From Rhizohabitans arisaemae (GTDB lineage: Bacteria; Actinomycetota; Actinomycetes; Streptosporangiales; Streptosporangiaceae), in assembly GCF_025996515.1 (NCBI RefSeq), contig NZ_BLRH01000021.1, positions 242,690 to 306,689 of the forward strand: DNA of 64,000 nucleotides. The letters are read 5' to 3'. Below, piece after piece: positions 22,705 through 55,768 of this stretch. Made by a program: the position numbers and the translations under genes. The first letter of the stretch is position 1, and every line of letters starts with the position of its first letter. A model generated the notes under the pieces. That model was given only the letters and a program-made list of their open reading frames with translations. It did no database searches and was not told where the DNA came from.

Positions 22705-25700
22705 ATGGACGGCGGGCGCTGGAAGGGCGGTGTCCGAGAGAGCGGGGCGGCGTCGGCCGAGTCCGGCGGGTATGCCAACACAGGTATCCATATCGGGGAT
22801 GTCTATCGGGAGCCGGTGGCGCGGTCGGCGTACCTGGAACAGGTTGAGCAGATCTTCCCGTGGACGTTGGAGGGCCGCTCTGCGGAGCTGGCCGAGCTGG
22901 CGGCGTTCTGCTCGGGTGAGGGCGGGCCGGGTTATGTGTGGTGGCAGGGGCCTGCCTGGGCGGGTAAGTCGGCGTTGATGGCGACGCTGGTGTTGCATCC
23001 TCCGGCGGGGGTGCGGGTGGTGTCGTTCTTCATCACGGCACGGTATGCGGGGCAGAGTGATCGTCAGGCGTTCTTGGATGTGGTGTTGCCGCAGTTGGCG
23101 GAGCTGCTGGGGCAATCGCTGCCGCCGTTGCTGGGGGCGTCGACGCAGCAGGGATGGTTCAACCGGTTGTTGAAGGAGGCCGCTCGCGCGTGTGCGGGGG
23201 CGGGTGAGCGGCTGGTGTTGGTGGTGGATGGGCTGGATGAGGACCGGGGGGTGACGGTCGGGCCGGGGGCGCACAGCATTGCAGCGTTGCTGCCGCCGGT
23301 GGTGGCGGAGGGGTTGCGGGTGGTGGTGGCCGGGCGGCCCAATCCCCCGGTGCCCTCAGATGTGCCGGTGGGACATCCGTTACGGGACGCGCGGATCGTG
23401 CGGGCGTTGACGCCGTCGGCTGCGGCGCAGGTTATCCGTGATGACGCTGAGCGTGAGCTGGAGCATGTGCTGCATGGGGATACTGCCGGTCGTGACCTGT
23501 TGGGCTTGTTGGTGGCCGCCGGTGGTGGTTTGAGCATCGGAGATCTGGCGGAGCTGACCGGGGCGCCGGTGGGTGGGGTGCGCAAGTGGTTGCACGCGGT
23601 GTCGGGGCGGACGTTTACTGGTCTGGAGAGCCAGTGGCGGCCGGGTACAGGGGCGCGGGTGTTCGTGCTGGCGCATGAGGAGCTTCACACCGCCGCAGTG
23701 GAGTCGCTGGGGGCGCAGATGCTGTCGGGATGTCATGACCGCATCCATGCGTGGGCGCAGGGCTATCGGGATCGGGGGTGGCCGGCCGAGACGCCGGAAT
23801 ATCTGTTGCGGGGTTATCACCGGTTGCTGGGTTCGGTGGGTGATCTGGATCGGATGGTGGCGTGCGCGACTGATAGGGCGCGGCTGGATCGGATGCTGGA
23901 CATCAGTGGGGGCGACGTCGCTGCCTTGGCCGAGATCACCACCGTCCAGCAGTTCATCTGCCACCAGGACCACCCGGACCTGACCGCCATGCTGAAAGTG
24001 GCTGTCACCCGCGATCGCCTCATCAGACGCAATAGCAACATTCCGCCCCATCTACCCGCTGCCTGGGCCTATTTAGGGAATCCCAATCGCGCTGAAGCAC
24101 TCGCTCGCTCCATTGCTGATCCATCTGAGCAAGTAAAGGCGCTGAGTTATCTAGTGGAAGCCTTTGCTAATACCGGAGATCTGAGTCGGATCCGTCATAT
24201 TGCTGCAACTGCTGAAACCAGCGCACTTTCTATTTCACACCCAACTGAGCGGGCAAAGGCGTTGGGATTGTTGGTGGAGGCCCTAGTCGACGCTAAAGAT
24301 TTGGACCAGGCAATGCGCATCGCCCACTCCATCACCGACCACTCTGCACAGGCAGGCGTGTTGGGCTTGTTGGTGGCGGCTCTGGTCGACGCTGAAGATT
24401 TGGACCAGGCCATGAGCATCGCTCGCTCCGTCACTGAGCGCTCTGGGCAGGTACTGGTATTGAGTTACTTGGCAGGGGCTTTGGCTAAGGTCGGGGATCT
24501 GGATCGAGCCCGTGAGACTGCCGCCACCGCTGAAACCATTGCCTACTCCATAACCTCCTCCACAACCTCCTCCGCCGCGCAACCATGGGCGTTGATCCAG
24601 GTAGCGAGGGCTTGGGTATGGATAGAGGATCTGGACCGTGCTCGTGAGATCGCGTCGGCGGTGGAAGACATCACCAACTCCGTCGAACCCCCTTACTGGC
24701 AGGTACGCACACTGTGTCAGCTGCTGAACCTTGTGGTCCAACTCGGGGAACAGGAGGGGGTCCGTCGAATTGCCGCCACCGCCCAGAACATCACGCGCTC
24801 CATGTTGGATCTATCAAACAGGATAGAGGAACCGCATTCTTTCCAGACTGAGACGCTGAGCATTCTCGTGGGCTCCCTCGCTCATGCAAGGGACCTAGAC
24901 AAGGCTGAAACTATCGCCCGGTCAATCACCGACCCCACTTCCCAGGCAGAGGTGTTGAGCATCCTCGTGGGCTCCCTCGCTCATGCAAGGGACCTAGACA
25001 AGGCTGAAACTATCGCCCGGTCAATCACCGACCCCACCTCCCAAGCCAAGGCGCTGAGCCACCTGGTTGGAGCTTTGATTCAGGCCGGGGATCTGAACCG
25101 AGCTCGTCAGATTGCAGCGACTGCTGAAACTATCGCCCGGTCAATCACCGACCCCACCTCCCAAGCCAAGGCGCTGAGCCACCTGGTTGGAGCTTTGATT
25201 CAGGCCGGGGATCTGAACCGAGCTCGTCAGATTGCAGCGACTGCTGAAACTATCGCCCGGTCAATCACCGACCCCACCTCCCAAGCCAAGGCGCTGAGCC
25301 ACCTGGTCAAGGCTCTCGCAGAAGTTGGAGACTTGAATAGGGCAGAGACCATCGCACACTCCATCACCGATCCCTCTTCGCAGGCTGCAGCGCTGAGCTA
25401 CCTGGTAGCAGCCTTGACTCAGGCTGGGGAATTGGACGAGGCGGAGACCATCGCACGCTCCATCACCGATCCCAACTGTCAAGCACAGGCATTGAGCCGA
25501 TTTGTAATGACCTTGATTCAGATCGGTGATATAGATCGAGTCCGTCAGGTTGCAGACGCCGCTGAAGCTGCTGCGCACTCAATCTCTGATCCCGCCGGAC
25601 GGGTTTGGGCGTTGAATAGTCTGACGGAAGTCCTAGCCCAGCTCGGGGATTTAAACCTAATCCGCCAGATTGCGGTTGCCACTGAAGCCGCCGCCCGCTC

Positions 25701-26187
25701 TATCGACTTTCCTTACGGAGTGGCCTGGGTATGGAGTAGCGTGGTGAGGGCAGCTGCTCAAGCGGGAGACTTCGACTGGGCTGAATCCACTGCTCGTTCC
25801 ATCTTCAGTCCCCGCGCGCAGGCAAAAGCGTTGGGCCACTTGGTGGAAGCCCTCACTCGAACTGGGAATACAGACAGGGCTGAAGAAATCACTCGTTCCC
25901 TTGCGATTGTTCCCTCTATCCAGGCAAAGGCGTTGAGCCACTTGGTGGAAGCTTTTGTTCAGTCCGAGGACCTAGACCAAGCTGAAGCCGTTGTCCGTTC
26001 CATCTCAGAACCTTCCATCCAGGCAGAAGCGTTAACGATTATTTTTGGGAGATCAGATCTCGATAACTCTCGGCGGATCCTTGCGGCAGTTCTGGCTAAT
26101 ACACAGCCAATCGCGCTACTAAAAGCGGTAGCCATGGTGGCGCCAGAAGCAGTTATCTACAACGCAGACTATGTCTCCCAGCCATAA
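22705..26187 (+). CDS. STAND-type NTPase with long TPR-like repeat array
   Basis: This is a 1160-residue protein. Residues 1-40 are a Gly-rich lead with the motif ANTGIHIGDV. The NTPase follows, with Walker A GPAWAGKS (82-89), Walker B LVLVVDGLDED (170-180) and the AGRPNPP sensor near 215. After a winged-helix-like linker, residues about 445-1120 are helical repeats of 33-40 residues with consensus LSxLVxALxxAGDLxxAxxIAxSITDPxxQ. STAND proteins are signal-sensing switches; in bacteria many are phage sensors (Avs type). No effector domain is obvious at either end. The repeat region is AT-richer than the NTPase part and partly identical between units. Confidence 0.85.
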   Translation: MDGGRWKGGVRESGAASAESGGYANTGIHIGDVYREPVARSAYLEQVEQIFPWTLEGRSAELAELAAFCSGEGGPGYVWWQGPAWAGKSALMATLVLHPPAGVRVVSFFITARYAGQSDRQAFLDVVLPQLAELLGQSLPPLLGASTQQGWFNRLLKEAARACAGAGERLVLVVDGLDEDRGVTVGPGAHSIAALLPPVVAEGLRVVVAGRPNPPVPSDVPVGHPLRDARIVRALTPSAAAQVIRDDAERELEHVLHGDTAGRDLLGLLVAAGGGLSIGDLAELTGAPVGGVRKWLHAVSGRTFTGLESQWRPGTGARVFVLAHEELHTAAVESLGAQMLSGCHDRIHAWAQGYRDRGWPAETPEYLLRGYHRLLGSVGDLDRMVACATDRARLDRMLDISGGDVAALAEITTVQQFICHQDHPDLTAMLKVAVTRDRLIRRNSNIPPHLPAAWAYLGNPNRAEALARSIADPSEQVKALSYLVEAFANTGDLSRIRHIAATAETSALSISHPTERAKALGLLVEALVDAKDLDQAMRIAHSITDHSAQAGVLGLLVAALVDAEDLDQAMSIARSVTERSGQVLVLSYLAGALAKVGDLDRARETAATAETIAYSITSSTTSSAAQPWALIQVARAWVWIEDLDRAREIASAVEDITNSVEPPYWQVRTLCQLLNLVVQLGEQEGVRRIAATAQNITRSMLDLSNRIEEPHSFQTETLSILVGSLAHARDLDKAETIARSITDPTSQAEVLSILVGSLAHARDLDKAETIARSITDPTSQAKALSHLVGALIQAGDLNRARQIAATAETIARSITDPTSQAKALSHLVGALIQAGDLNRARQIAATAETIARSITDPTSQAKALSHLVKALAEVGDLNRAETIAHSITDPSSQAAALSYLVAALTQAGELDEAETIARSITDPNCQAQALSRFVMTLIQIGDIDRVRQVADAAEAAAHSISDPAGRVWALNSLTEVLAQLGDLNLIRQIAVATEAAARSIDFPYGVAWVWSSVVRAAAQAGDFDWAESTARSIFSPRAQAKALGHLVEALTRTGNTDRAEEITRSLAIVPSIQAKALSHLVEAFVQSEDLDQAEAVVRSISEPSIQAEALTIIFGRSDLDNSRRILAAVLANTQPIALLKAVAMVAPEAVIYNADYVSQP
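24862..25059 (+). repeat. 99-base tandem repeat inside the STAND gene
   Basis: Two copies at 24862-24960 and 24961-25059 are nearly identical and keep the reading frame (33 codons). Each encodes one helical repeat, ILVGSLAHARDLDKAETIARS followed by ITDPTSQA. The few differences are mostly silent. This points to a recent unequal crossover within the gene. Confidence 0.8.
25003..25307 (+). repeat. 120-base perfect tandem repeat inside the STAND gene
   Basis: Bases 25021-25140 and 25141-25260 are identical, and the identity continues into a partial third copy (to 25307) and back to 25003. Each unit encodes a 40-residue repeat, 33 residues plus an ATAETIA insert. The lack of even silent changes means the duplication is very recent or is kept uniform by recombination. 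Confidence 0.9.
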
Positions 26188-37164: not shown

Positions 37165-38682
37165 TCATCCGCCGAGGCCGAGGGCCTGGGTGTCGCCGTA
37201 GAGCGCGGCCAGGTCCACCAAAAGCACGTCGGACCGCCGGGCGGCGGCGGTCAGGAGGTCCGGGTAGAAGCCGTTCATCGAGAAGAGCGCGAGGACCGCC
37301 CGGTCCGTCCGATGTCCTTGGCCCGCCAGCACCGTGCGCAGGTGTTCCAGGCGGGCGAGGTCGGCGCCGCCGCGGCGGTCCAACGTGGCTTTGGCCTCGC
37401 CGATGACGGCGATCTCGGCCCGGGGATGCTGCGGGTTCTGGCCGAGGGCGAGCGCCAATACGTCGATCTCATGTTTGGCGCGGGCGTTCTGATCGGTGAA
37501 CTCGCAGGTGCCGACGGTGCCGGGGAGTCCGTCCGGAAGTATCTCGTGGGCGAATCTGCGGGTCCAGTCACGGGAGAGCGACTCGAAGTGCGGGCCCAGA
37601 ATCTTGGAGTTGAACGTGGGGGTCGCGCTCTTCCACGCCTCGGCGGAGAAGCCCTGGTCGATGACCGACGCCTGGGGCATCGTGACAAGCTGGTTGAAAC
37701 GGATCACCGGGTCGGTGAGGGTGATGTGCGGGCTGCGGGTTCTGAGCAGATCCTGCTCCCGCGTTACGTATCCGGTCTTCTCCAGCACCTCAAGGGGATA
37801 GGTGACCGCGCCGCGTTCCCTGCCGAGTGCGGCGCCGATCTTGCTGGGGGTGCCCGCCCCCTGGGCGATGGCCGAAAGCATGTCGTAGTAGAGCGTGTGC
37901 TGGGTGATGCGCGGGTCCTCACGGAGGAGGAACTCCGTCTCGGACCTGGAGAACACCGCACGGCCTGGGTTGAGGACGGTCTGGGTCACCCACGCGTCGA
38001 AATCGGCCGCCCGGGTGACGGCCGGGCGGCCCGCCAGCGGAAGGTAGCCGGGCGCGCCGCCCAGGACGGCGTGGACCCGCAGTGCGGCCTCCGGGGACTC
38101 GATTCCCCAATGTGCGCGCATCGTCCGAAAGTCGAACGCTTGCAGCCTCAAGTCGATCACGGCTCTACCGCGGAGCGGCTTGGTGCCGGAGAGCAGTTCA
38201 TGCATGATGCTCATCGCCGAACCACACAGGATGAGACGGATCGGCGGATGCTCACTCAGCTGGGTTTCGTCGTACAAGGCCTGCAAGATGCCGGGCACCT
38301 CGGGTGAGTGCTGCATCAAGTAGGGAAGCTCGTCGATGATCAGCAGAGGACGCCTGAGGGCGTCCCTTGTGGTGACGACCTGCAGGGCGTTGCGCAGCAG
38401 AGCCCACCAATCCTCGAAGCGCACGCTTTCCGGCTGAAGCCCGGCATAGGCTGCGATCTCCGCGGAGAGCCTGCGCAGCGCCGGGCCGCGGCCTTCCTCA
38501 CGCACCGCGGTGAGATAGAGCCCGCCCGCCGCCTCCGCAAGGGCGTGCAGGAGGAAGGACTTGCCGTGGCGGCGGCGCCCGGAGACGACGCCGATGCGCA
38601 TGGCGGGCGCCGGATCGGCGAGAAAGTCGCAGAGCAGTGCCCACTCGCGGTCCCTGGCCAGAAGTCGGGCCGGTTTGTCCAT
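37165..38682 (-). CDS. AAA ATPase with C-terminal nuclease-like domain
   Basis: The 505-residue protein is of the archaeal-ATPase/DUF234 type. Walker A is GRRRHGKS (35-42) and Walker B LLIIDELPYL (113-122). A winged-helix segment (GAALGRERGAVTYPLEVLEKT) follows, and the C-terminus has KHEIDVLAL then AVIGEAKAT, a D-ExK arrangement like PD-(D/E)XK nucleases. These ATPases are common in archaea and actinobacteria and of uncertain role; many may act on DNA or in defence. It stands alone. A second copy once existed, since part of its 3' end lies at 2757-2883. Confidence 0.85.
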   Translation of the reverse strand: MDKPARLLARDREWALLCDFLADPAPAMRIGVVSGRRRHGKSFLLHALAEAAGGLYLTAVREEGRGPALRRLSAEIAAYAGLQPESVRFEDWWALLRNALQVVTTRDALRRPLLIIDELPYLMQHSPEVPGILQALYDETQLSEHPPIRLILCGSAMSIMHELLSGTKPLRGRAVIDLRLQAFDFRTMRAHWGIESPEAALRVHAVLGGAPGYLPLAGRPAVTRAADFDAWVTQTVLNPGRAVFSRSETEFLLREDPRITQHTLYYDMLSAIAQGAGTPSKIGAALGRERGAVTYPLEVLEKTGYVTREQDLLRTRSPHITLTDPVIRFNQLVTMPQASVIDQGFSAEAWKSATPTFNSKILGPHFESLSRDWTRRFAHEILPDGLPGTVGTCEFTDQNARAKHEIDVLALALGQNPQHPRAEIAVIGEAKATLDRRGGADLARLEHLRTVLAGQGHRTDRAVLALFSMNGFYPDLLTAAARRSDVLLVDLAALYGDTQALGLGG

Positions 38683-39175: not shown

Positions 39176-40771
39176 GTGCGTATGTCGCCGTTTGAGCCAT
39201 TGCGTGAGTTCGACCCGCAGGTTGTCGGGGGCTATCGGCTGCGGGCTCGGCTGGGTGCGGGTGGGATGGGGCAGGTGTTCCTGTCCTTCACGCCGGGCGG
39301 GCGGGCCGTCGCGGTCAAGGTGCTGCGGCAGGAGTTCGCCGACGACCCCGAGTTCCGGGCCAGGTTCGCCCAGGAGGTGCGGTCGGCTCAGCAGGTGAAC
39401 GGGGTGCACATCGCCCAATTGCTGGACGCCGGGACCGGGGACGACCAGCCGTGGATGGCCACCGCCTATGTCCCGGGGCCGTCGCTGGGTGAGGCGGTGC
39501 GGCTGGCCGGCCCGCTGCCCGTCCCTCAGGTGCAGGCGCTCACCGTTGTGATCGCCCGGGCTCTGCAGGCGATCCACGAGGCGGGGATCATCCACCGGGA
39601 TCTCAAGCCGGGCAACGTGGTGCTCTGCTCCGACGTGGCTCGGGTGATCGACTTCGGGGTGGCCCGCGCCGCCGACGCCACGGCGCTCACGGTGAGCGGG
39701 ATGCGCGTCGGCACCCCGCAGTACACCGCCCCCGAGCAGATCCAGGGCCGTTCCGCCACCCCCGCGGCCGACGTGTTCGCCCTCGGCGCTGTGGCCTACT
39801 ACGCGGCGACCGGGAAGCACGCCTTCGGGGAGGGCCCGGAGTTCTCCGTCGTCCACCGGGTCGTTTACGAGGAGCCGTCGCTGGAGGGCTGCCCGCCCTC
39901 GCTCCTTGCGCTCGTCCGGTCCTGCCTGAGCAAGGATCCCGAGGCGCGGCCCGCCCTGCAGGACGTGATCGACGTCGGCGGGTCCGCGGAGAACAGCGGA
40001 TTTCCCCCTCCGGTTGTCAGGCTCATCGAGGAACGGCAGGAGGCCGTCGACTCCCTGTCCGCCACGACGGCACCGTCCGAGCGGGCTCCGGCGGCACAAA
40101 CCGGGGCGCGTCCGGAACCTCGGCGGGAGCCCGGGAACTCCGGCCCAGCACGCCGCGCCGGATGGCTTCCGGTGGTGGTGACCGCCGTCGTGGTATCCCT
40201 GATCACGGCGTTGACCGTCACTCAGCTCGGCGGAGGCGACCCCGAGAGGGACCCGCAGGCGGTACAGACCGGGCAAACGGTGTCGACCACCTCCGCCCCG
40301 ACCACGGCACCGCCGCCTTCGACGACACCGCCGGTGAACGGAGAGCCATCCGTTCCGCCCACCCCCACGCCGTCCCCGTCGCCGGGTGACGTGACGCAAT
40401 GGACGGGGCGGGTGAAATTCGACTTCGACGGCATCGACCTCGATTCGGTCCCGCCGAGCCGGCAAGAGGAATCGTTCGGAGCCTTCGACATCGAGGTCGC
40501 CCTGGCCTGTGGCGGCAGTTGCGCGCTGTCCGATGAAACCGGGAGGCAAGGTCTCGCGCGCTGGCCGACCTTGGAACCTCCGACGCGGGCCAAGTGTGCC
40601 GAACTCGTCTCGACCCAAGGAGACAGCCAGCTCGGGGGGATCAAGCGGGGCGATCTCCTCTGCCTGCGGACGTCCATGAACCGGATCGCGCTGGTCGCGA
40701 TCAACTCCTTCGTCGACGAAAACGTCGACGCCACGGTCATAGTCTGGGCGGCTACCGACGAGAGCGGGTGA
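39176..40771 (+). CDS. Membrane serine/threonine protein kinase
   Basis: The 531-residue PknB-like kinase has a Gly loop (LGAGGMGQVF), Lys48, HRDLKPGNVVL and DFGVARA. The activation segment leads into GTPQYTAPEQIQG. A Pro/Ala-rich linker is followed by one membrane helix (about 327-347, WLPVVVTAVVVSLITALTV) and a 180-residue outer domain with two Cys pairs that could sense a ligand. The GTG at 39176 is close to a TATAGT box; ATG 39182 is the alternative. The gene converges with, and overlaps by 20 bases, the second kinase gene, so the two transcripts could interfere. Confidence 0.92.
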   Translation: MRMSPFEPLREFDPQVVGGYRLRARLGAGGMGQVFLSFTPGGRAVAVKVLRQEFADDPEFRARFAQEVRSAQQVNGVHIAQLLDAGTGDDQPWMATAYVPGPSLGEAVRLAGPLPVPQVQALTVVIARALQAIHEAGIIHRDLKPGNVVLCSDVARVIDFGVARAADATALTVSGMRVGTPQYTAPEQIQGRSATPAADVFALGAVAYYAATGKHAFGEGPEFSVVHRVVYEEPSLEGCPPSLLALVRSCLSKDPEARPALQDVIDVGGSAENSGFPPPVVRLIEERQEAVDSLSATTAPSERAPAAQTGARPEPRREPGNSGPARRAGWLPVVVTAVVVSLITALTVTQLGGGDPERDPQAVQTGQTVSTTSAPTTAPPPSTTPPVNGEPSVPPTPTPSPSPGDVTQWTGRVKFDFDGIDLDSVPPSRQEESFGAFDIEVALACGGSCALSDETGRQGLARWPTLEPPTRAKCAELVSTQGDSQLGGIKRGDLLCLRTSMNRIALVAINSFVDENVDATVIVWAATDESG

Positions 40772-41930
40772 CCTCGCCGAACCGTTCGATCGCCTGGGTC
40801 AGGGGATGCGTCGGTCCCAAAGTCTGACGGGCCTGCTCGACGAGCCGGACCCAGCGGATGGCCGCCTCCGCCTCACGGCCCAGGGCATGTCCGGCGCGTA
40901 CCCGGCCGAACTCCGCGGTGAGGTACTCCGGTGTCCGCTCGGCTTGCCGCTCGCGCGCGGCGCCGAAGGCCGCATACGCCTCCGCGGTACGGCCGGAGGT
41001 CAGCAACCGTTCCGCGGCGTCGATCCCGCTTGCCGGCGGTGGCGGCGGCGGGGCGACGGTCGGCGGACCGGGGATCTCAGGACGCTCCCGATCGCCCGGC
41101 TGGACGATCTCCCCCAGTTCCCGCAACACCTCGGCGGCGGTCGGACGCTCGTCCACGGATTTGGCGAGCATGGCGTGGACCAGCGCCGAAAGCCGCCGCG
41201 GGACCTCCGGCCGGAAGGTCTCCACCGGCTCGGGCGGTCTGCCGAGGATGCGCACCAGGTAGTCCGCCCCGTCCTGGAACGGCGGTCCGCCGGTGAGCAG
41301 GGCGTACAGCACCGCCCCGAAGGAGTAGACGTCCGAGGGCGGGCCGGCCTCCTCGCCTTGGAACTGTTCGGGTGACATGTACACCGGTGTGCCGATGACC
41401 GCGCCGACCCTGGTGTACCGCTCCAGGTTCGAGCCTGGCGCGATCGCGATCCCGAAGTCGCAGATCTTCACCGTCCCGTCCTGGTTGAGGAGGAGGTTGG
41501 ACGGTTTGAGGTCGCGGTGCACGATCGGGATCGGCAGGCCGTGCAGAAAGGTCAGCCCGGCGGCCACCTGAGCGCCGTAGGTGATGACCTCGGCGACCCC
41601 GAGGAAACCGTGCTGGGAGAGCAGGTCGCCCAGGTCGGGTCCGCGGAGGAACTCCATGACCACGAAGAGGGTGCCCCCGTGGTCGCCGCGGTCGTACACG
41701 GTCACGATGTTCGGGTGCTGCGTCATGGCGAGCACCCGGATCTCGCGGTTGAGGCGGGCCGTCGCGGCGCCGTCCATCGCGGCGATGTCCGGGGGCACCA
41801 GTTTGACGGCGACGTCGCGTTCGAGGATGTGATCCCGGCCGCGGAACACCATTCCCATCCCGCCTTGGCCGATCAGCTCGTCGAGGCGGAACCGGCCTGC
41901 CAGCACCACGCCGACGTCAATCCCGGCCAT
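40752..41930 (-). CDS. Cytosolic serine/threonine protein kinase
   Basis: The 392-residue kinase has GQGGMGMVF, Lys43, HRDLKPSN with Asp140, DFG at 158-160 and the APE-like SPEQ. After residue 280 comes a Pro-rich linker and a helical C-terminal region (AAERLLTSGRTAEAYAAF, then RVRAGHALGREAEAAIRWVRLV) that looks like two TPR-type repeats. There is no membrane helix. It starts 14 bases before the end of the FHA gene, so it is translated with it. The FHA protein is thus the obvious partner or substrate. Confidence 0.92.
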   Translation of the reverse strand: MAGIDVGVVLAGRFRLDELIGQGGMGMVFRGRDHILERDVAVKLVPPDIAAMDGAATARLNREIRVLAMTQHPNIVTVYDRGDHGGTLFVVMEFLRGPDLGDLLSQHGFLGVAEVITYGAQVAAGLTFLHGLPIPIVHRDLKPSNLLLNQDGTVKICDFGIAIAPGSNLERYTRVGAVIGTPVYMSPEQFQGEEAGPPSDVYSFGAVLYALLTGGPPFQDGADYLVRILGRPPEPVETFRPEVPRRLSALVHAMLAKSVDERPTAAEVLRELGEIVQPGDRERPEIPGPPTVAPPPPPPASGIDAAERLLTSGRTAEAYAAFGAARERQAERTPEYLTAEFGRVRAGHALGREAEAAIRWVRLVEQARQTLGPTHPLTQAIERFGEVTRSRR

Positions 41931-43047
41931 CGAACACCCTGGTCTGCTCCGACGCCTGGCGGCGCAGGACGTTCGTCGGGACATGCGGATCGTCCGGCTC
42001 GTCGATGACGTACTCCCGTCCGCTGACCACCAGTTCCACCCGGTCGTTCAGGATGACGCTCTCGTGGGTGCGCAGCCGGCGGGTGCCGCCCGGCGGCAGC
42101 CGGAAGGGCGGGCCGGTGGGCGGGCGGATCATGGTGCCGTTGCTGCTGGTGTCGGTCACGGTGAGGCTCCGGCCGTCCCAGCGCAGGATGACGTGACGCC
42201 TGCTGATGCTCTCGTTCCCCTTGGTCGGCAGGGCGATCCCCGGTGGCTCCGGCGCGCGCCCGACCCGCACCTGGTGACCGGCGTCGATCACGAAGCGCCG
42301 GTACACGGCGTCGCCGACCCTGATCTTCACCTGCACCCGGCGGAGCTGGTGCCCGAGGTCGTCGAGGGGGCGGCGATGGGTGGGGCAGCTTACGGTCCCC
42401 GATCGGTTGTCGGGCAGCGCCCGGCCACCCGCCCGGGCCGGGCCGAACAGCGGGCAGTCGTCCTCGGGGCAGCGCCATCGCCGGCTGAGCAGATCCCGCC
42501 GCGGTCCGCGGGCGTCCCTGCGGTCGTACATGCCCCACTGCAGGAGCAGGCTCTCCTCCTCCTTCTTCGACATCTGGGACTCCGACGGCGTCGGCATGAT
42601 CCGCGGCACCACGGTGACCGTCCCGCCGCGTCCGGCCACATGGCGGAGGAACCGGTCGCGGTTTCCGGACAGCCAGGGGTAGACGCGATGGTAGTCCGCG
42701 AAGGAGTCCCTGCTGACGATCTTCATGTCGGTGCCGTCGGCGATCTCCAGCAACCGGTCGTCGGCCTTCTCCAATACCTCGATCAGGCCCTGCCGGTACC
42801 AGCGGTGCAGGACGGCGCGCTCCCGGTCGGCGAGGAGGTGGGTGTTGCGGAGCAGCGACTCGTCGGCGACCCCGTAGACCATGACCGATTCGTCGTTCGA
42901 GAAGACGGCAAGCCCGTCCACGAGCTTGGTGAACCTGCTCAGCTCCGCCGCACGTGTCCCGCCGAGGTCCCGCTCCCGGATCACGTTCGACATGTCCACG
43001 GCGAAGTCGGCCAGCTCGTCGGTCCAGAGGTGCTCCTCAACCCCCAT
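41917..43047 (-). CDS. NYN-like nuclease, zinc ribbon and FHA domain protein
   Basis: The 376-residue protein has three parts. Residues 12-140 look like a NYN/PIN-type ribonuclease: VDMSNVI (Asp18), EKADDRLLEIA (Asp96/97) and IVSRDSFADYH (Asp114). Residues 190-225 have Cys193, Cys198, Cys221 and His224, a likely zinc ribbon. Residues 255-350 are an FHA domain with RVGR (261-264), SRRH (282-285) and SSNGT (301-305), which binds phosphothreonine. The NYN assignment is from motif spacing only. It is the first gene of a two-gene operon with a Ser/Thr kinase, suggesting control of RNA cleavage by phosphorylation. Confidence 0.75.
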   Translation of the reverse strand: MGVEEHLWTDELADFAVDMSNVIRERDLGGTRAAELSRFTKLVDGLAVFSNDESVMVYGVADESLLRNTHLLADRERAVLHRWYRQGLIEVLEKADDRLLEIADGTDMKIVSRDSFADYHRVYPWLSGNRDRFLRHVAGRGGTVTVVPRIMPTPSESQMSKKEEESLLLQWGMYDRRDARGPRRDLLSRRWRCPEDDCPLFGPARAGGRALPDNRSGTVSCPTHRRPLDDLGHQLRRVQVKIRVGDAVYRRFVIDAGHQVRVGRAPEPPGIALPTKGNESISRRHVILRWDGRSLTVTDTSSNGTMIRPPTGPPFRLPPGGTRRLRTHESVILNDRVELVVSGREYVIDEPDDPHVPTNVLRRQASEQTRVFDGRD

Positions 43048-43270
43048 AACGCAGGAAGTTAGCAGGATCTAGTACAGCGTCAACCGCGCGTGCGGCGAAA
43101 TCCTCGCTCAGGGGCAGACCGCGGAAGACGGCCCGGATCCAGACGGCGCCGGCGAGGAGGTCCACGAGCAGCATGGGGTCGGCGGCCGGGGTCGGTTCGC
43201 CGCGTTCGGCGGCCCTTGCGAAGATCGATTGTTCCGGGCGAAACGGTCTGCGAAGAAGCCCCGGATGCTG
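43037..43270 (-). pseudogene. TetR-family regulator C-terminal fragment
   Basis: The minus strand reads FFADRFARNN in one frame and IFARAAERGEPTPAADPMLL in the next, then VDLLAGAVWIRAVF and LPLSEDFAARAVDAVL. This matches the C-terminal ligand domain of TetR/AcrR regulators such as TetR_C proteins with an AxERGE motif. The DNA-binding domain is missing and a frameshift separates the pieces. It overlaps the start of the FHA gene by 11 bases. Confidence 0.7.
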
Positions 43271-43325
43271 CCGGCCGGCTCCGGGCCGCCCACGGCCGCC
43301 CTGCGGGTGGAGCGGACCTCGGAGA

Positions 43326-44339
43326 TCACGGAGGCGGGGCTCCCCCGCTGGACTGGCGGACGATGAGCTCGGGCTGGAAGACGATCTGCTTGTGCCTGTG
43401 CTCGGGTTCCCGGGCGGAGTGGGCGAGCAGGAGCTGCCCGGCCCGGTAGCCGAGCTCGTAGGTGGGCTGACGGACCGAGGTGAGCGGGACGATCCAGTCG
43501 GCCGCGAACTCGATGTCGTCGTACCCGACCAGCGCGATGTCCTCGGGGACCCGGATGCCGCGCCGGGTGAGCCCCCGGTAGACGCCGAAGGCGAGCATGT
43601 CGTTGGCGCAGAACACGGCGGTGGGGCGGGCGCCTTCGTCCAGGAGCCGTTCGATCGCCGCGGCACCGGCCTTGATGTTCATCCCCTCGTTGTGGCTGAC
43701 GGTCAGCGCGTCGGCGGGGGAGAGCCCGTGCCGCTGGAGGGCTTGGCGGGCGCCCTTGAGCCGGTCGGCGTGCTGGCGGATGCTGGGCGGACCGCTCACA
43801 AAGGCGATCATGCGGTGGCCGAGGCCGGCCAGGTGGTCCAGGGCGAGGTCGCCGCCGGTGACGTCGTCCACGGAGACCGAGCATTCGCCCGGGCCGCCCT
43901 TACGGTCCAGGTAGACCAGCGGAATGCCGTGCGCGGTGAGGATCTGGTGGGCCCGCCGGGTGCCGCGGGCCGGGGTGAGCAGCACGCCGCGCACCCGGTG
44001 CCCGGCGAGGAGCCGCAGGTGGTGCTCCTCCTGGACGGTGGAGTCGTCGGAGTTGCACAGGATGACGACGTGCTCGGCTTCCCGGGCCGCGGCCTCCACA
44101 CCGCGGGCGGCTTCGGTGAAGAACGGGTTGGACGCGTCCAGCACGACGAGCCCGATGACCCTGCTGCCGGCCCCGCCGAGCTGCCGGGCCTGCTGGTTGG
44201 CGACGAAGCCGAGTTCGGCGATGGCGGCGTGCACCCGGGCCCGGGTCTTGGGGGAGACGATCTCGGGCCGGTTCAGGGTGTTGGAGACGGTGCCCAGGGA
44301 GACCCCGGCGCGCTGCGCCACCTCTTGGATACTCACCAC
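43326..44339 (-). CDS. LacI-family transcriptional regulator
   Basis: The 337-residue repressor has an N-terminal helix-turn-helix (SIQEVAQRAGVSLGTVSNTL) with the hinge, and a periplasmic-binding-like effector domain with NPFFTEAARGVEAAA, CNSDDSTVQEE and AVFCANDMLAFGVYRGL. It begins within the last 7 bases of the esterase gene, so they form an operon. A typical LacI palindrome is found at 50752-50765 between the ABC importer and the secreted-enzyme gene, which makes it the likely sugar sensor for this cluster. Confidence 0.93.
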   Translation of the reverse strand: MVSIQEVAQRAGVSLGTVSNTLNRPEIVSPKTRARVHAAIAELGFVANQQARQLGGAGSRVIGLVVLDASNPFFTEAARGVEAAAREAEHVVILCNSDDSTVQEEHHLRLLAGHRVRGVLLTPARGTRRAHQILTAHGIPLVYLDRKGGPGECSVSVDDVTGGDLALDHLAGLGHRMIAFVSGPPSIRQHADRLKGARQALQRHGLSPADALTVSHNEGMNIKAGAAAIERLLDEGARPTAVFCANDMLAFGVYRGLTRRGIRVPEDIALVGYDDIEFAADWIVPLTSVRQPTYELGYRAGQLLLAHSAREPEHRHKQIVFQPELIVRQSSGGAPPP

Positions 44340-51112: not shown

Positions 51113-54100
51113 ATGAGGATGAACATGCTGAAAGTCCCCCGGCTCGCCGCGGTGTTCGCCACGCTGTGCGTGGCCGCGCTGCTGCCGCTGATCACCACAC
51201 CCCCCGCCGCCGCCGAGCCCCCCGAATGTCCCACCGGGATCAGCAAGGTCGCCGTCGGGAAGAGAAAAATCGAGTTCTCCGGGACCGCCACCTCCGGATG
51301 TACGGTCGTCCCCGGCCGCAAGGTCGAGATCTACGCGAAGGGGTCGGACACCCCGCTCACCACGGTGACCCCCGGTGCCGACGGCGCATTCCGCGCTTCG
51401 GTCAAGCGATACTCCGGAAAGGCCGACCGGCTCAACGCGACCTTCACCGCCGTCGGAGTGGACGGCGCAGCCCGTACCGCGCTCGGCGGACCGCGGCACG
51501 TCGACACCTGGAAGGCCCGGGCCGCCAACTCCGCGCCGCGGCCGACGCCGACCACCCAGAAGGGGTTGTCGGTCAGCATGACCAGCGACGCCGAAGAGCT
51601 CGGAATCGGGCACGCGGCGATCTCCGTCGGGGTGAACTACCTGATACGGCAGGGTCCCGGCGACCCGGCGGACACCATCGAGTTCCAGTCGGGCGGCCGC
51701 ACCTTCTACTTCGACAAGTCCTACGCCGAGTGGCTGGACCACTCGATCAAGCCGCTCTCCGACAACGACACCCTCGTCTACCTGGTGCTGGTGATCGTCT
51801 ACGACGACAAGCCCAACTCCGGCTTCCCCGTCCTGGTCCACCCGGACGCGCCCACCGGGCCGCCGCCGTCCTTCATGACCTACGCCTTCAACACCGTCAC
51901 CCCGGACGGCATCGCGCACTACACGGCGCTGATGGAGTTCATCGCCCAGCGCTACTCGCGGGACGACGAGAAGTACGGCAAGGCGATCGACTACATCGTC
52001 GGCAACGAGATCAACTCGGCCGGGGTCTGGCAGCGGATGGGCGACAAGACCCTCCCGCAGTTCCTGGACAACTACGTGCCCGCGCTGCGCATCGGCCACA
52101 ACGCCGCACGTAAGTACCACAGCGACGGCCGGGTCTACATCTCGCTCGACCACTTCTGGAACTCCGCGGCCCTGCCCTCGGAGCCGCTCAAGTTCTACAA
52201 GGGCAAGGAGGTGCTGGACGGGCTCGCGGCGAAGATCAAGGCCGAAGGGGACTTCCCCTGGCACGTCGCCCACCACCCCTACCCCTCCGACATGATGGAC
52301 CCGCGGACCTGGAACGACCCGGTCACCGAGGACCCGAGCACCTCGAAGATCACCTTCAAGAACATCGCCACACTGTCGCGTTACCTGGAGCGGCCCGAGC
52401 TGCGCCACAACGGCGAGCCCCGGCGGATCATCCTCTCCGAGCAGGGCTGCCAGAGCCCGACCAACGGCGCGGCCGACCAGGAGCTGCAGGCCGCCTGCTT
52501 CGCCTACTCCTACTACAAGATCCGCGCCGCGGGCGGGATCGACGCCTACATCTGGGACCCGCAGGTGGACAACCGGGAGGCGGCCGGGCTGCGGATCGGC
52601 CTGTACACCTGGGACGACAAGCGGCAGGACTTCGCGGCACCGCCCGGTGAGAAGAAGCGGATCTACAACCTCTTCCGCGACATCGACACCGCGGACTCCC
52701 TGGCGCTGACCGAGTTCGCCAAGCCGATCATCGGGATCGGCGACTGGACCGAGGCGATCCCGAACTTCACCCCCGCGATGATCGACCGCAGGCGGACCGC
52801 GACCCAGGTTCCCGCCTACGACTACGCGGCACTCGGCGGATCCCAGCAGATCTCCGGCTTCGAGAGCGGCGTGAACGGCTGGCGCACCTCCGACCACACC
52901 CATGCGATCGAGTCGGTCGCCGACCCGCAGGCACCCCAGGGCACCAAGGTCCTGCGCACCCACTTCACCGACAAAGAGATCGTCTTCAGCAACGGCACCA
53001 ACTCCAAGGCCTGGCGCGGCGTCGACCTCCCGCTCACCACACCGCTGAACGCCACCGCCAAGCCGAACCTGGCGGTCAAGCTCCGCGTCCCCGGCACCGG
53101 GACGTTCTCCCCGGTCAACAAGTTCTCCGCCCAGATCCGGGCGTACGGCGCCGACGGCACCGTCGCCTACGGCACGGCCGCGATCAAGGCCGGCACCGAC
53201 TGGAACTCGGTCGGGATCGATCTGTCCGGCTGGGCCGGCCGCAGCCAGATCAACCGGATCAAGGTGTGGGTCAAGGGCAGCAGCGGCGACGACTGGAAGG
53301 GCACCTTCGACCTGGACGCGGTGACCCTGGCGGCCACCGCCGACGCCACGGGTCGTCCCGCCAACCTCGACCTGCGCGCCCGCGCCGACGACCGCAAGGG
53401 TGCCGGGAGCACGGTCCGCGTGGACGTGGTCAACAACGGCGGTCCCGCGCTCGCCGCCGATTTGGCCGTACAGGACTGCGACGGCGTCACCCTCAACGGA
53501 CCCGTGGCAGTCACCGGGCTGGTCGGTTCGGGTGGACGCAAGACCGTGACCGGCACCTTCGCCTCCTACACCCCCGCCGATCCCGACCACCCCAAGCTGT
53601 GCCTCACGCTCGGCGGTCACGTCTACACGGTCACCGTCGAGGTGCCGCCGCCCCCGCCGACCCTGCTGTACGACTTCGAGAACGGCACCCAGGGCTGGAA
53701 GGCCGGGGAGAACGTCAACACGGTGGCCCGGGTCTCCTCGTTCCCCAACGGGCCGCAGCGTCCGCACGGCGGTGAGGGCGCACTGGACGCGGTGCTCACC
53801 GACGGCGACGCCTCCAGGCCCAAGACCGTGTCGGTACGGCCTGCGGGCCCGCTCCGGCTCGGCGGGGTCTCCGAGGTGTACGCCTGGGTCAACGCCTACG
53901 GCGGCATCCCCGACGCCACCGGGTACGAGGCGAAGCTCACGCTGCGCAGCGGATCGGAGTCGATCTCCACGGTGCTGCCGACCTTCGTGCCGGACAAGTG
54001 GAACCGGCTGGCGATCGACGTCTCGGCCTGGCCGCACCGGAACAACGTCACCGGCATCGACGTGACCTACCGGGCGCTCGGCACCACCTTCAACTGGGTG

Positions 54101-55768
54101 GGCGGCCCGCACCTGCAGGTCGACGACGTCGGCGTGGTCGGAAACTACGACCAGACCGCCACCTGGCGTGCCGCCTGGGGTGCCTCCATCGGCGGCCACT
54201 TCGGCGGGGACAGCCCGGCCGACACCACCTACCGGCAGTCCCTGCGGCTCAGCACCGGCGGAGACGCGGTCCGGGTGCGCCTGGTCAACCCGTTCTCCTC
54301 CGCCCCGCTCGTCTTCGACCACGCCACCGTCGGCGTCCGGGAGTCCGGCGCGGCGGTACGGGGCACCCCGACCCCGCTCACCGTGGACGGCAAGGCGAAG
54401 ATCACAGTGCCGCCCGGCGAGATCGTCTACACCGACCCGGTCACCCTGGCCGTCGGGGCCGGCGACAACCTGCTGGTCAGCACGCACGCGCTGAGCTCGC
54501 TCCCGCTGCTCAGCCATGACTGGGCGAACAAGACCCAGTACCGGACTGCCGCGGGAGCCGGTGACCGCACCGGCGACCAGGGCGGTACGTCGTTCACCGC
54601 CACCGGGACCAGCACCTACTGGATCGACGCCGTGGACGTGCTCGGCAGCCAGGTGCCCGGCACGGTGGTGGTGCTCGGCGACTCCATCACCGACGGCGCC
54701 GGCGCCACCCGGGACGGCGACGACCGCTGGACCGACGTGCTCAGCGGCCGGCTGAACGCCCTGCCCGCCGCCGACCCGCGCCGCCGTGCCGTGGTCAACG
54801 CGGGGATCGGCGGGAACACCCTCAACTCCATCGGCAACCCGCAGGTCGGGGTGAACGGGCTGACCCGGCTCGACCGGGACGTGCTCAAGCAGACCGGGGT
54901 CACCGACGTCGTCGTCTTCATGGGCACCAACGACATCTACACCGGCTCCACGTCAAGCCAGGTGATCTCGGCGCTGACCACGGCCGCCGAGCGGATCCAC
55001 GCCGCGGACCTGCGGGCGATCGTGGCCACGGCCATCCCCCGGGGCAACGGCACCGGCTGGACCGCGGCCCATGAAACCCAGCGGCAGGCCCTCAACGCCT
55101 GGATCAGGTCCAACCGGGTCTTCGACGCGGTCATCGACTTCGACCCGCTGGTGGCCGACCCGGCCGACCCAACCAAGATCCGCGCGGCCTACGACGCCGA
55201 CGGCACCCACCCCAACGCCGCCGGATACGGGGTGATGGGCAACGGGGTGAACCTGGACGTCTTCACCGCGCCCCGGAGGCAGCCGGTCGTGGTCACCGGT
55301 TTCGAGGACGGCGCACCGGGCTGGACCGCCGGGACGAACGTGGCGGGTGTCTCCACCGTCTCGTCCTTCCCGAACGGGCCGCATGTGCCGTACCGGGGGC
55401 AGTTCGCCCTGCAGGCGGTGATGACGGACGGCGACGCCTCCCGGCCCAAGTCGGTCGTCTACACCCCGCAGACCCCGATCGACATGTCCGGCGCCGCGGA
55501 GGTCTCGGTTTGGTTCGACGGCTACGGCGGCATCCCCGACGCCACCGGTTACGAGGTCGAACTCACCGTCTGGAGTGACCAGGACAAGGTCTCCGGCACG
55601 ATCCGCGGCACACTGCACGATCAGTGGAGCAAGGTCGCCACCGACATCTCCCAGTGGTCGGGCCGCAACCGGGTAACCAAGATCGAGGTCACCTACCGGA
55701 TCCTCGGCACCACCTGGAACTGGTGCTGCGGCGCCCTCTTCCAGCTCGACGAACTCCAATACTCCTAA
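51113..55768 (+). CDS. Secreted multi-domain glycoside hydrolase/SGNH esterase
   Basis: The 1551-residue protein begins with a signal peptide (about 1-35). A Gly/Ser beta domain leads to a TIM-barrel of the DUF5722/GH-A type (about 150-530) with GNEINSAG (Glu near 299) after strand 4 and ILSEQGC (Glu near 442) after strand 7, likely the acid/base and nucleophile. A carbohydrate-binding-like beta module follows (about 565-740). At about 1180-1390 is an SGNH hydrolase, with GDSITDG, GxND in MGTNDIY and DGTHPN. Two copies of a beta module (about 855-1005 and 1396-1551, sharing SSFPNGP and DASRPK) frame the esterase. It probably deacylates and cuts a plant polysaccharide outside the cell. Confidence 0.85.
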   Translation: MRMNMLKVPRLAAVFATLCVAALLPLITTPPAAAEPPECPTGISKVAVGKRKIEFSGTATSGCTVVPGRKVEIYAKGSDTPLTTVTPGADGAFRASVKRYSGKADRLNATFTAVGVDGAARTALGGPRHVDTWKARAANSAPRPTPTTQKGLSVSMTSDAEELGIGHAAISVGVNYLIRQGPGDPADTIEFQSGGRTFYFDKSYAEWLDHSIKPLSDNDTLVYLVLVIVYDDKPNSGFPVLVHPDAPTGPPPSFMTYAFNTVTPDGIAHYTALMEFIAQRYSRDDEKYGKAIDYIVGNEINSAGVWQRMGDKTLPQFLDNYVPALRIGHNAARKYHSDGRVYISLDHFWNSAALPSEPLKFYKGKEVLDGLAAKIKAEGDFPWHVAHHPYPSDMMDPRTWNDPVTEDPSTSKITFKNIATLSRYLERPELRHNGEPRRIILSEQGCQSPTNGAADQELQAACFAYSYYKIRAAGGIDAYIWDPQVDNREAAGLRIGLYTWDDKRQDFAAPPGEKKRIYNLFRDIDTADSLALTEFAKPIIGIGDWTEAIPNFTPAMIDRRRTATQVPAYDYAALGGSQQISGFESGVNGWRTSDHTHAIESVADPQAPQGTKVLRTHFTDKEIVFSNGTNSKAWRGVDLPLTTPLNATAKPNLAVKLRVPGTGTFSPVNKFSAQIRAYGADGTVAYGTAAIKAGTDWNSVGIDLSGWAGRSQINRIKVWVKGSSGDDWKGTFDLDAVTLAATADATGRPANLDLRARADDRKGAGSTVRVDVVNNGGPALAADLAVQDCDGVTLNGPVAVTGLVGSGGRKTVTGTFASYTPADPDHPKLCLTLGGHVYTVTVEVPPPPPTLLYDFENGTQGWKAGENVNTVARVSSFPNGPQRPHGGEGALDAVLTDGDASRPKTVSVRPAGPLRLGGVSEVYAWVNAYGGIPDATGYEAKLTLRSGSESISTVLPTFVPDKWNRLAIDVSAWPHRNNVTGIDVTYRALGTTFNWVGGPHLQVDDVGVVGNYDQTATWRAAWGASIGGHFGGDSPADTTYRQSLRLSTGGDAVRVRLVNPFSSAPLVFDHATVGVRESGAAVRGTPTPLTVDGKAKITVPPGEIVYTDPVTLAVGAGDNLLVSTHALSSLPLLSHDWANKTQYRTAAGAGDRTGDQGGTSFTATGTSTYWIDAVDVLGSQVPGTVVVLGDSITDGAGATRDGDDRWTDVLSGRLNALPAADPRRRAVVNAGIGGNTLNSIGNPQVGVNGLTRLDRDVLKQTGVTDVVVFMGTNDIYTGSTSSQVISALTTAAERIHAADLRAIVATAIPRGNGTGWTAAHETQRQALNAWIRSNRVFDAVIDFDPLVADPADPTKIRAAYDADGTHPNAAGYGVMGNGVNLDVFTAPRRQPVVVTGFEDGAPGWTAGTNVAGVSTVSSFPNGPHVPYRGQFALQAVMTDGDASRPKSVVYTPQTPIDMSGAAEVSVWFDGYGGIPDATGYEVELTVWSDQDKVSGTIRGTLHDQWSKVATDISQWSGRNRVTKIEVTYRILGTTWNWCCGALFQLDELQYS

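Follow-up and report, generated by a model that had tools for sequence, protein, structure and literature searches.

Gene organization of the locus

The window (the whole 64,000-nt stretch of Rhizohabitans arisaemae DNA analyzed here) contains a minus-strand gene at 41917..43047 that encodes a 376-aa protein with a predicted NYN/PIN nuclease domain, a zinc ribbon, and an FHA domain. The preliminary description, which lacked the strand, had the coordinates exactly right. The predicted nuclease domain (residues 9-150; 42598..43023) contains D18, N21, D62, D96, and D114, and the three motifs from which it had been proposed, VDMSNVI, EKADDRLLEIA, and IVSRDSF, were all found in the protein. It is followed by the zinc ribbon (residues 189-226; 42370..42483), in which the expected Cys/His ligands (C193, C198, C221, and H224) are in place and conserved, and by the FHA domain (residues 234-346; 42010..42348). 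The protein ends in a disordered tail (residues 351-376; 41920..41997; pLDDT < 50) carrying a candidate phosphosite, T369 (nt 41941-41943). Because relatives matching over most of the length of this ORF occur in many genomes, the fusion of a predicted RNA-cutting domain to a zinc ribbon and an FHA domain is a real observation, beyond chance.

The FHA domain was detected with PF00498 (residues 260-308, E 2.8e-7, 31.3 bits against a cut-off of 20.7), and the residues of its G-R, S-R-x-H, and N-G-T motifs (R264, S282, H285, N303, and G304) are all present. Comparison of the FHA model with solved FHA domains gave Z scores of up to 14.4, the FHA domain of APLF being the best match.

The stop codon of this gene overlaps by 14 nt the ATG of the next gene (40752..41930, minus strand), as previously noted; an alternative in-frame ATG at 41984 would lengthen the overlap. 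The product of the second gene is a 392-aa Ser/Thr protein kinase (PF00069, E 9.7e-52) with intact AVK, HRDLKPSN, and DFG motifs, and no membrane-spanning stretch was evident in it (highest 19-residue hydropathy, 1.33). The TPR-like tail attributed to this kinase was not borne out, since the match (E 0.01, 16.7 bits) lay well below the cut-off of 32.7. A second Ser/Thr kinase of 531 aa (39176..40771, plus strand; PF00069, E 3e-41) is convergent with the first, and the gene ends overlap by 20 nt; its tie to the pair is uncertain.

Several other features of the window were recorded. The C-terminal part of a TetR repressor (43037-43339, minus strand; TetR_C_11, E 2.8e-14), with no N-terminal half in that ORF region, is wedged between a lacI-type gene and the start of the NYN-FHA gene, which it overlaps; it looks like a recombination scar. 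A NACHT-like NTPase with TPR-like repeats (22705-26187, plus strand) lies in a stretch of lower third-position G+C at about 18-27 kb, possibly an acquired island. A single ORF at 51113-55768 (plus strand) joins DUF5722 to a GDSL lipase domain.

Predicted fold and active site of the N-terminal domain

Direct scans of the 376-aa protein returned the FHA domain alone (Pfam) or no match (NCBIfam and PADLOC), so recognition of the nuclease domain required profile searches and structure prediction. PF11977 (RNase_Zc3h12a) gave no match in the protein at E <=1, in the whole genome at E <=10, or in five NYN-FHA relatives scanned with Pfam, and it reached 20.4 bits against a cut-off of 23 in a paralogue (L038:5319-6347). 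On these profile scores the domain is filed as a divergent NYN family rather than as a member of PF11977.

An AlphaFold2 model of the whole protein, built from 12 sequences, was confident (pLDDT 86.7). Its best 50 Foldseek matches were FHA domains alone, and the N-terminus was therefore modeled separately. The model of residues 1-233 had a pLDDT of 92.3, with about 95 in the NYN/PIN part. In a second comparison, among the best 1000 Foldseek chains, the closest structure to residues 1-233 was PRORP2 (Z 12.9, rmsd 3.3, 135 residues), and the best 19 matches (Z 8.6-12.9, identity 13-20%) were all PRORP, human mitochondrial RNase P, ZC3H12A/B/C, or KHNYN. Two further MRPP3 matches at Z 7.1-7.2 tie with FEN-type nucleases at 6.9. 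Structure prediction thus placed the N-terminus in the PIN/NYN fold, not outside it.

In a 23-row, 178-column NYN alignment (41% mean identity), which leaves out the degenerate protein of locus L042 and one near-copy, the only invariant columns were D18, N21, R38, D62, D96, L100, and D114. A 23-row profile reached 25 other genomes of the phylum with E values of 2e-10 to 4e-16, and two of the proteins found (L086 and L091) exceed the PF11977 cut-off, as do two HSP70-NYN proteins. In the latter, an HSP70 domain is fused to a C-terminal Zc3h12a-type NYN domain; one (L077:1453-3399) is encoded in genome G137, whose name is inferred as Microbispora amethystogenes, and the other (L073:1465-3405) in another actinomycete. 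Against PDB sequences the NYN profile gave 16 matches at E <=10, none of them significant alone; 12 were KHNYN, PRORP2, or ZC3H12A/B/C (best E 0.035), and the remainder were one VapC6 and three Ada. In the PDB alignment, D96 corresponds to the second Asp of the DD pair and D114 to the late Asp.

The window protein resembles ZC3H12A/Regnase-1, KHNYN, and PRORP in its predicted NYN/PIN fold, D-x-S-N start motif, acid pair, and late Asp. To judge from the titles of 3v33 and 7ndj, ZC3H12 proteins also have a zinc finger beside the nuclease; the window protein differs from all three groups in its four-ligand Cys/His zinc ribbon and terminal FHA domain.

The acidic residues were also conserved in homologues. 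Among 37 rows that include the window protein and paralogues, D18 was retained in 37, N21, D62, and D96 each in 34, and D114 in 35, and all five are present in the window protein. This count omits L111, whose NYN domain is missing from the trimmed row, and L113, a close relative of L112. Three of the 37 proteins (L042, L110, and L112) have lost catalytic residues and yet retain the zinc ribbon and the FHA phosphate ligands, which would suit a nuclease domain that acts as a scaffold or an RNA-binding pseudo-enzyme, with FHA as the working part. For the family this reading is improbable, however, because the acids rank with the most conserved residues of the domain (34 or more of the 37 proteins, the window protein among them). 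The profile and structural results together support the assignment of residues 9-150 as a predicted NYN/PIN nuclease of the Zc3h12a/PRORP type.

Zinc ribbon, FHA ligands, and C-terminal tail across the family

The zinc ligands C193, C198, and C221 were found in all 37 rows, and position 224 was His in 24 and Cys in 13. The FHA ligands R264 and H285 were likewise invariant (37/37) and S282 was kept in 36/37. N303 was kept in only 22/37 rows and replaced in 15; therefore, one clade may bind phosphopeptides differently.

Of 33 complete tails, 32 have a Thr among their last 16 residues; the corresponding figure for other genes of these loci was 87 of 152. In the exception, L031, Thr lies 18 residues from the C-end. 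At the fourth residue from the C-end, Thr occurred in 14 of 33 tails compared with 9 of 152 other genes. The binomial P for the tail Thr (3e-7) ignores near-copies (L036/L040, L108/L109, and L103-L105), and because these are included, the locus counts are not independent events. Against shuffled tails, with the contig-end-truncated L114 gene included, Thr in the last 16 residues (33/34 versus a mean of 27.5, P 0.0035) and Thr followed by a hydrophobic residue within two positions (25/34 versus a mean of 18.9, P 0.0095) were both enriched, these patterns having been picked after the tails had been inspected. An acidic residue before the tail Thr was not clearly commoner than in shuffles (P 0.07-0.80), and the tail context is not conserved. 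The idea that the tail motif is copied from the kinase activation loop was discarded: TRV in both was a single case, the window, and the other loops listed show no such rule. The tail Thr (T369 in the window) is a possible kinase site.

Association with kinase genes

The neighborhood was surveyed with kinase profiles run against the six-frame translation of each locus. A kinase domain lay 3-1089 nt away in 14 of 23 clade-A loci and 4.7-5.5 kb away, in a conserved cluster, in five more; in the remaining four (L031, L037, L042, and L109) none was found in the fetched stretch. One of these kinase-less loci, L031, encodes one of the three nearest relatives in the tree. Among nine clade-B loci, the kinase was adjacent in one and at 4.8-4.9 kb in three, and none was found in five, two of which are short stretches. 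The outlier L111 has a kinase 54 nt away. No kinase was found within 6 kb in the degenerate loci L112 and L113 or on the 5.5-kb contig of L110. In the sister pair L041/L042, the member with the broken active site, L042, is also the one without a kinase, in this one case only.

The arrangement of the two genes varies. In the 14 adjacent clade-A loci, the kinase is downstream in eight (the window, L032, L033, L058, L104, L105, L106, and L108), upstream in four (L039, L041, L051, and L052), and divergent in two (L103 and L107). With the starts chosen here, the genes overlap by 4 nt in L032, L041, and L106. With 55 kinase matches in the 8.33 Mb of the window genome, an estimated 2-3% of genes would be expected to have a kinase this near. 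Repeated rearrangement with closeness kept argues for a functional tie between the NYN-FHA protein and the kinase.

Distribution and conserved clusters

Within the same taxonomic family, a protein search at E <=1e-6 of 341 genomes from 68 genera identified relatives in 22 genomes from 12 genera; the 22 count the window genome itself and one genome (G249) with a partial match. The protein family is thus patchily distributed. Three further named loci belong to Streptomyces and Kitasatospora. An alignment-based search of contigs identified eight loci, and a contig search with a single sequence found none. A search of 100 genomes at E <=1e-3 gave matches in seven; four of these, confined to the FHA part, were excluded.

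At class level, a profile built on the N-terminus and zinc ribbon matched 15 of 394 genomes; at phylum level it matched 27 of 396. The latter comprise the window's own genome, one with a degenerate NYN-FHA protein (L071), and 25 others. By eye, the proteins of these 25 (L078-L102, one match per genome) are NYN proteins that have no FHA domain but an S1-like part and Lys/Ala-rich tails; in two of them scanned with Pfam, S1 scored 18.7 bits against a cut-off of 22 in one and was absent from the other.

In five clusters (L034, L035, L036, L038/L114, and L040) the NYN-FHA gene is divergent to a gene run that in every case includes a second NYN-zinc ribbon-FHA protein and a kinase. In L114, the cluster read most fully, the order is a protein with a hydrophobic C-end (by eye), a PP2C phosphatase (PDB match E 8e-9 with a profile of three homologues), a vWA protein (35.2 bits; cut-off, 27), the second NYN-zinc ribbon-FHA protein, the kinase (37.9 bits against 31.7), and a 1254-aa protein. 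The last (L114:7408-11172) had no Pfam, PADLOC, PDB-sequence, or NCBIfam match and is 46-71% identical to proteins in two further genomes. Clade-B locus L120 encodes a weakly ligase-like protein, a Cys-rich protein, and, with scores above their cut-offs, a vWA protein (32.5 versus 23.8 bits) and a kinase (45.7 versus 31.7 bits). A carboxylate-amine ligase assignment for L120:3400-4956 was rejected, since the likeness is weak (TIGR02050, E 1e-5, far below the cut-off).

Relationship to known systems

According to passages of PMC7159879, PIN domains are joined to FHA in the vWA components of ternary (vWA-MoxR) conflict systems, PIN domains with a C-terminal zinc-binding domain occur, and genes for a kinase, a PP2C, and a vWA protein occur together in the GAP1-N2 systems of actinobacteria. 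Since PIN-FHA fusions and kinase/vWA/PP2C modules are thus already in print, the earlier proposal of a new type of signal-to-RNA-decay switch was too strong. In the literature covered (titles, and passages of PMC8195603, PMC7159879, and PMC3482391, with subscription literature mostly outside this scope), we found no NYN-FHA protein paired with a kinase.

As described in those passages, the PIN-FHA effectors of vWA-MoxR systems share with the window protein an RNase PIN domain and an FHA domain in one polypeptide. They were seen in vWA components of systems that have a MoxR ATPase; in contrast, the window family has no vWA domain in the polypeptide and its usual partner is a kinase. No vWA or MoxR match was found among five scanned window proteins around the gene (the kinases, a LacI regulator, and an ATPase among them), and no AAA match in the scanned cluster genes. 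The ATPase (37165-38682, minus strand) came nearest to ATPase_2, at 32.8 bits against a cut-off of 33.2.

The cluster variant also resembles the TerY-P triads and TerY-P-like modules of PMC11090510, which the passages seen describe as vWA, PP2C, and Ser/Thr kinase; L114 has all three. Of this triad, the five scanned window proteins include kinases only, with no vWA or PP2C, and the NYN-FHA proteins are additional to the triad as described there. Neither the window kinase nor a cluster kinase (L038:6344-7372, 342 aa) gave a match to the zinc ribbon or OB fold that is fused to the kinase in a TerY-P triad, although small zinc ribbons can escape detection.

The archaeal FHA protein ArnA carries a zinc finger and, unlike the window protein, is not known to have a nuclease domain. 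In abstract-level descriptions (PMC6509490, PMC12852372, and PMC7472852), ArnA (FHA) and ArnB (vWA) are described as working with a kinase and a phosphatase; the likeness to the family lies in this combination of an FHA protein with a vWA protein, a kinase, and a phosphatase.

Defense or normal regulation

The family may serve in defense or in normal regulation, and both are compatible with the proposed phospho-gated RNase. In defense, the nuclease would be an effector triggered by the kinase (with vWA and PP2C where present) on sensing an invader, as in TerY-P-associated systems. The patchy presence of the family and the occurrence of vWA, PP2C, and kinase in one cluster are consistent with such a role, and kinase-PP2C-vWA modules are tied to defense in passages of PMC11090510. 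In Actinomadura formosensis, the type I-E CRISPR-Cas genes cas3, cas8e, and cas11e (L040:10321-15504) adjoin the kinase/vWA/NYN-FHA cluster and start 1.3 kb from the NYN-FHA gene, and a DNA methyltransferase is encoded about 6 kb away from the cluster of Microbispora locus L117. In the window, the ATPase adjoining the second kinase matches the PADLOC candidate PDC-S27 (64.3 bits, E 2.3e-18). The CRISPR-Cas and methyltransferase neighbors, however, come from proteins picked by eye in two loci, without control loci, and the PADLOC kinase matches (PD-T4-6 and mad6) reflect generic kinase similarity. Searches of plasmids, phages, and viral contigs gave no relative within the limits applied, and upstream of the gene the window has a carbohydrate kinase and a LacI-type regulator. 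On balance, we consider a defense role rather unlikely.

These sugar-use genes, of which the window neighbors include several, fit instead with normal regulation, in which a stress or developmental switch like GarA/OdhI would let the kinase adjust how fast a few RNAs are turned over, independently of invaders. Kinases with FHA partners are standard in actinobacterial physiology, and the same genome encodes an FHA protein with an N-terminal ETTS motif (L122), which we take to resemble that of GarA. The sparse distribution is, however, unlike that of a core regulator, and this role is put forward only tentatively.

A proposed phosphorylation-gated endoribonuclease

Our analysis established the gene structure, the predicted fold, the conserved acids, zinc ligands, and FHA phosphate residues, the kinase motifs and neighborhood, and the tail Thr. 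From these features we infer, with a probability of roughly 0.7, that the NYN-FHA/kinase pair is a phosphorylation-gated endoribonuclease, in which both the RNase activity and the phosphorylation are predicted. The N-terminal NYN domain would cut RNA in a metal-dependent manner, like ZC3H12A and PRORP, and the zinc ribbon would help to hold the RNA. The ligand of the FHA domain would be phosphothreonine, carried either by the partner kinase or by the C-terminal tail of the same protein, a tail that the neighboring kinase may phosphorylate; kinase activity would thereby set both the site of action of the nuclease and its assembly state. The first suggestion, that the RNase is driven by a kinase of its own, is plausible.

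The switch could operate in either direction, by activation through protomer pairing or by auto-inhibition as in GarA/OdhI. The latter are FHA proteins with a kinase-targeted Thr in a flexible end, a feature shared with the reading proposed here; they differ from the window protein in having their Thr motif at the N-terminus and no known enzyme domain. One speculative version, to which we would give somewhat longer odds than evens, is a self-contained switch: once phosphorylated by the neighboring kinase, the C-terminal Thr would be captured by the FHA domain of its own protomer or of another one, and the NYN domains would thereby be paired or released to cleave specific RNA, with the vWA and PP2C clusters as a resettable version containing two such nucleases.

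Although the predicted nuclease is of the same kind as animal Regnase-1 and KHNYN, Pfam does not detect it in the window genome, and the family is therefore easily overlooked. The two-gene unit of the window, a kinase with a predicted nuclease, is open to test-tube study. If the proposed reading is true, eukaryote-like protein phosphorylation would be directly linked to RNA cleavage in bacteria.
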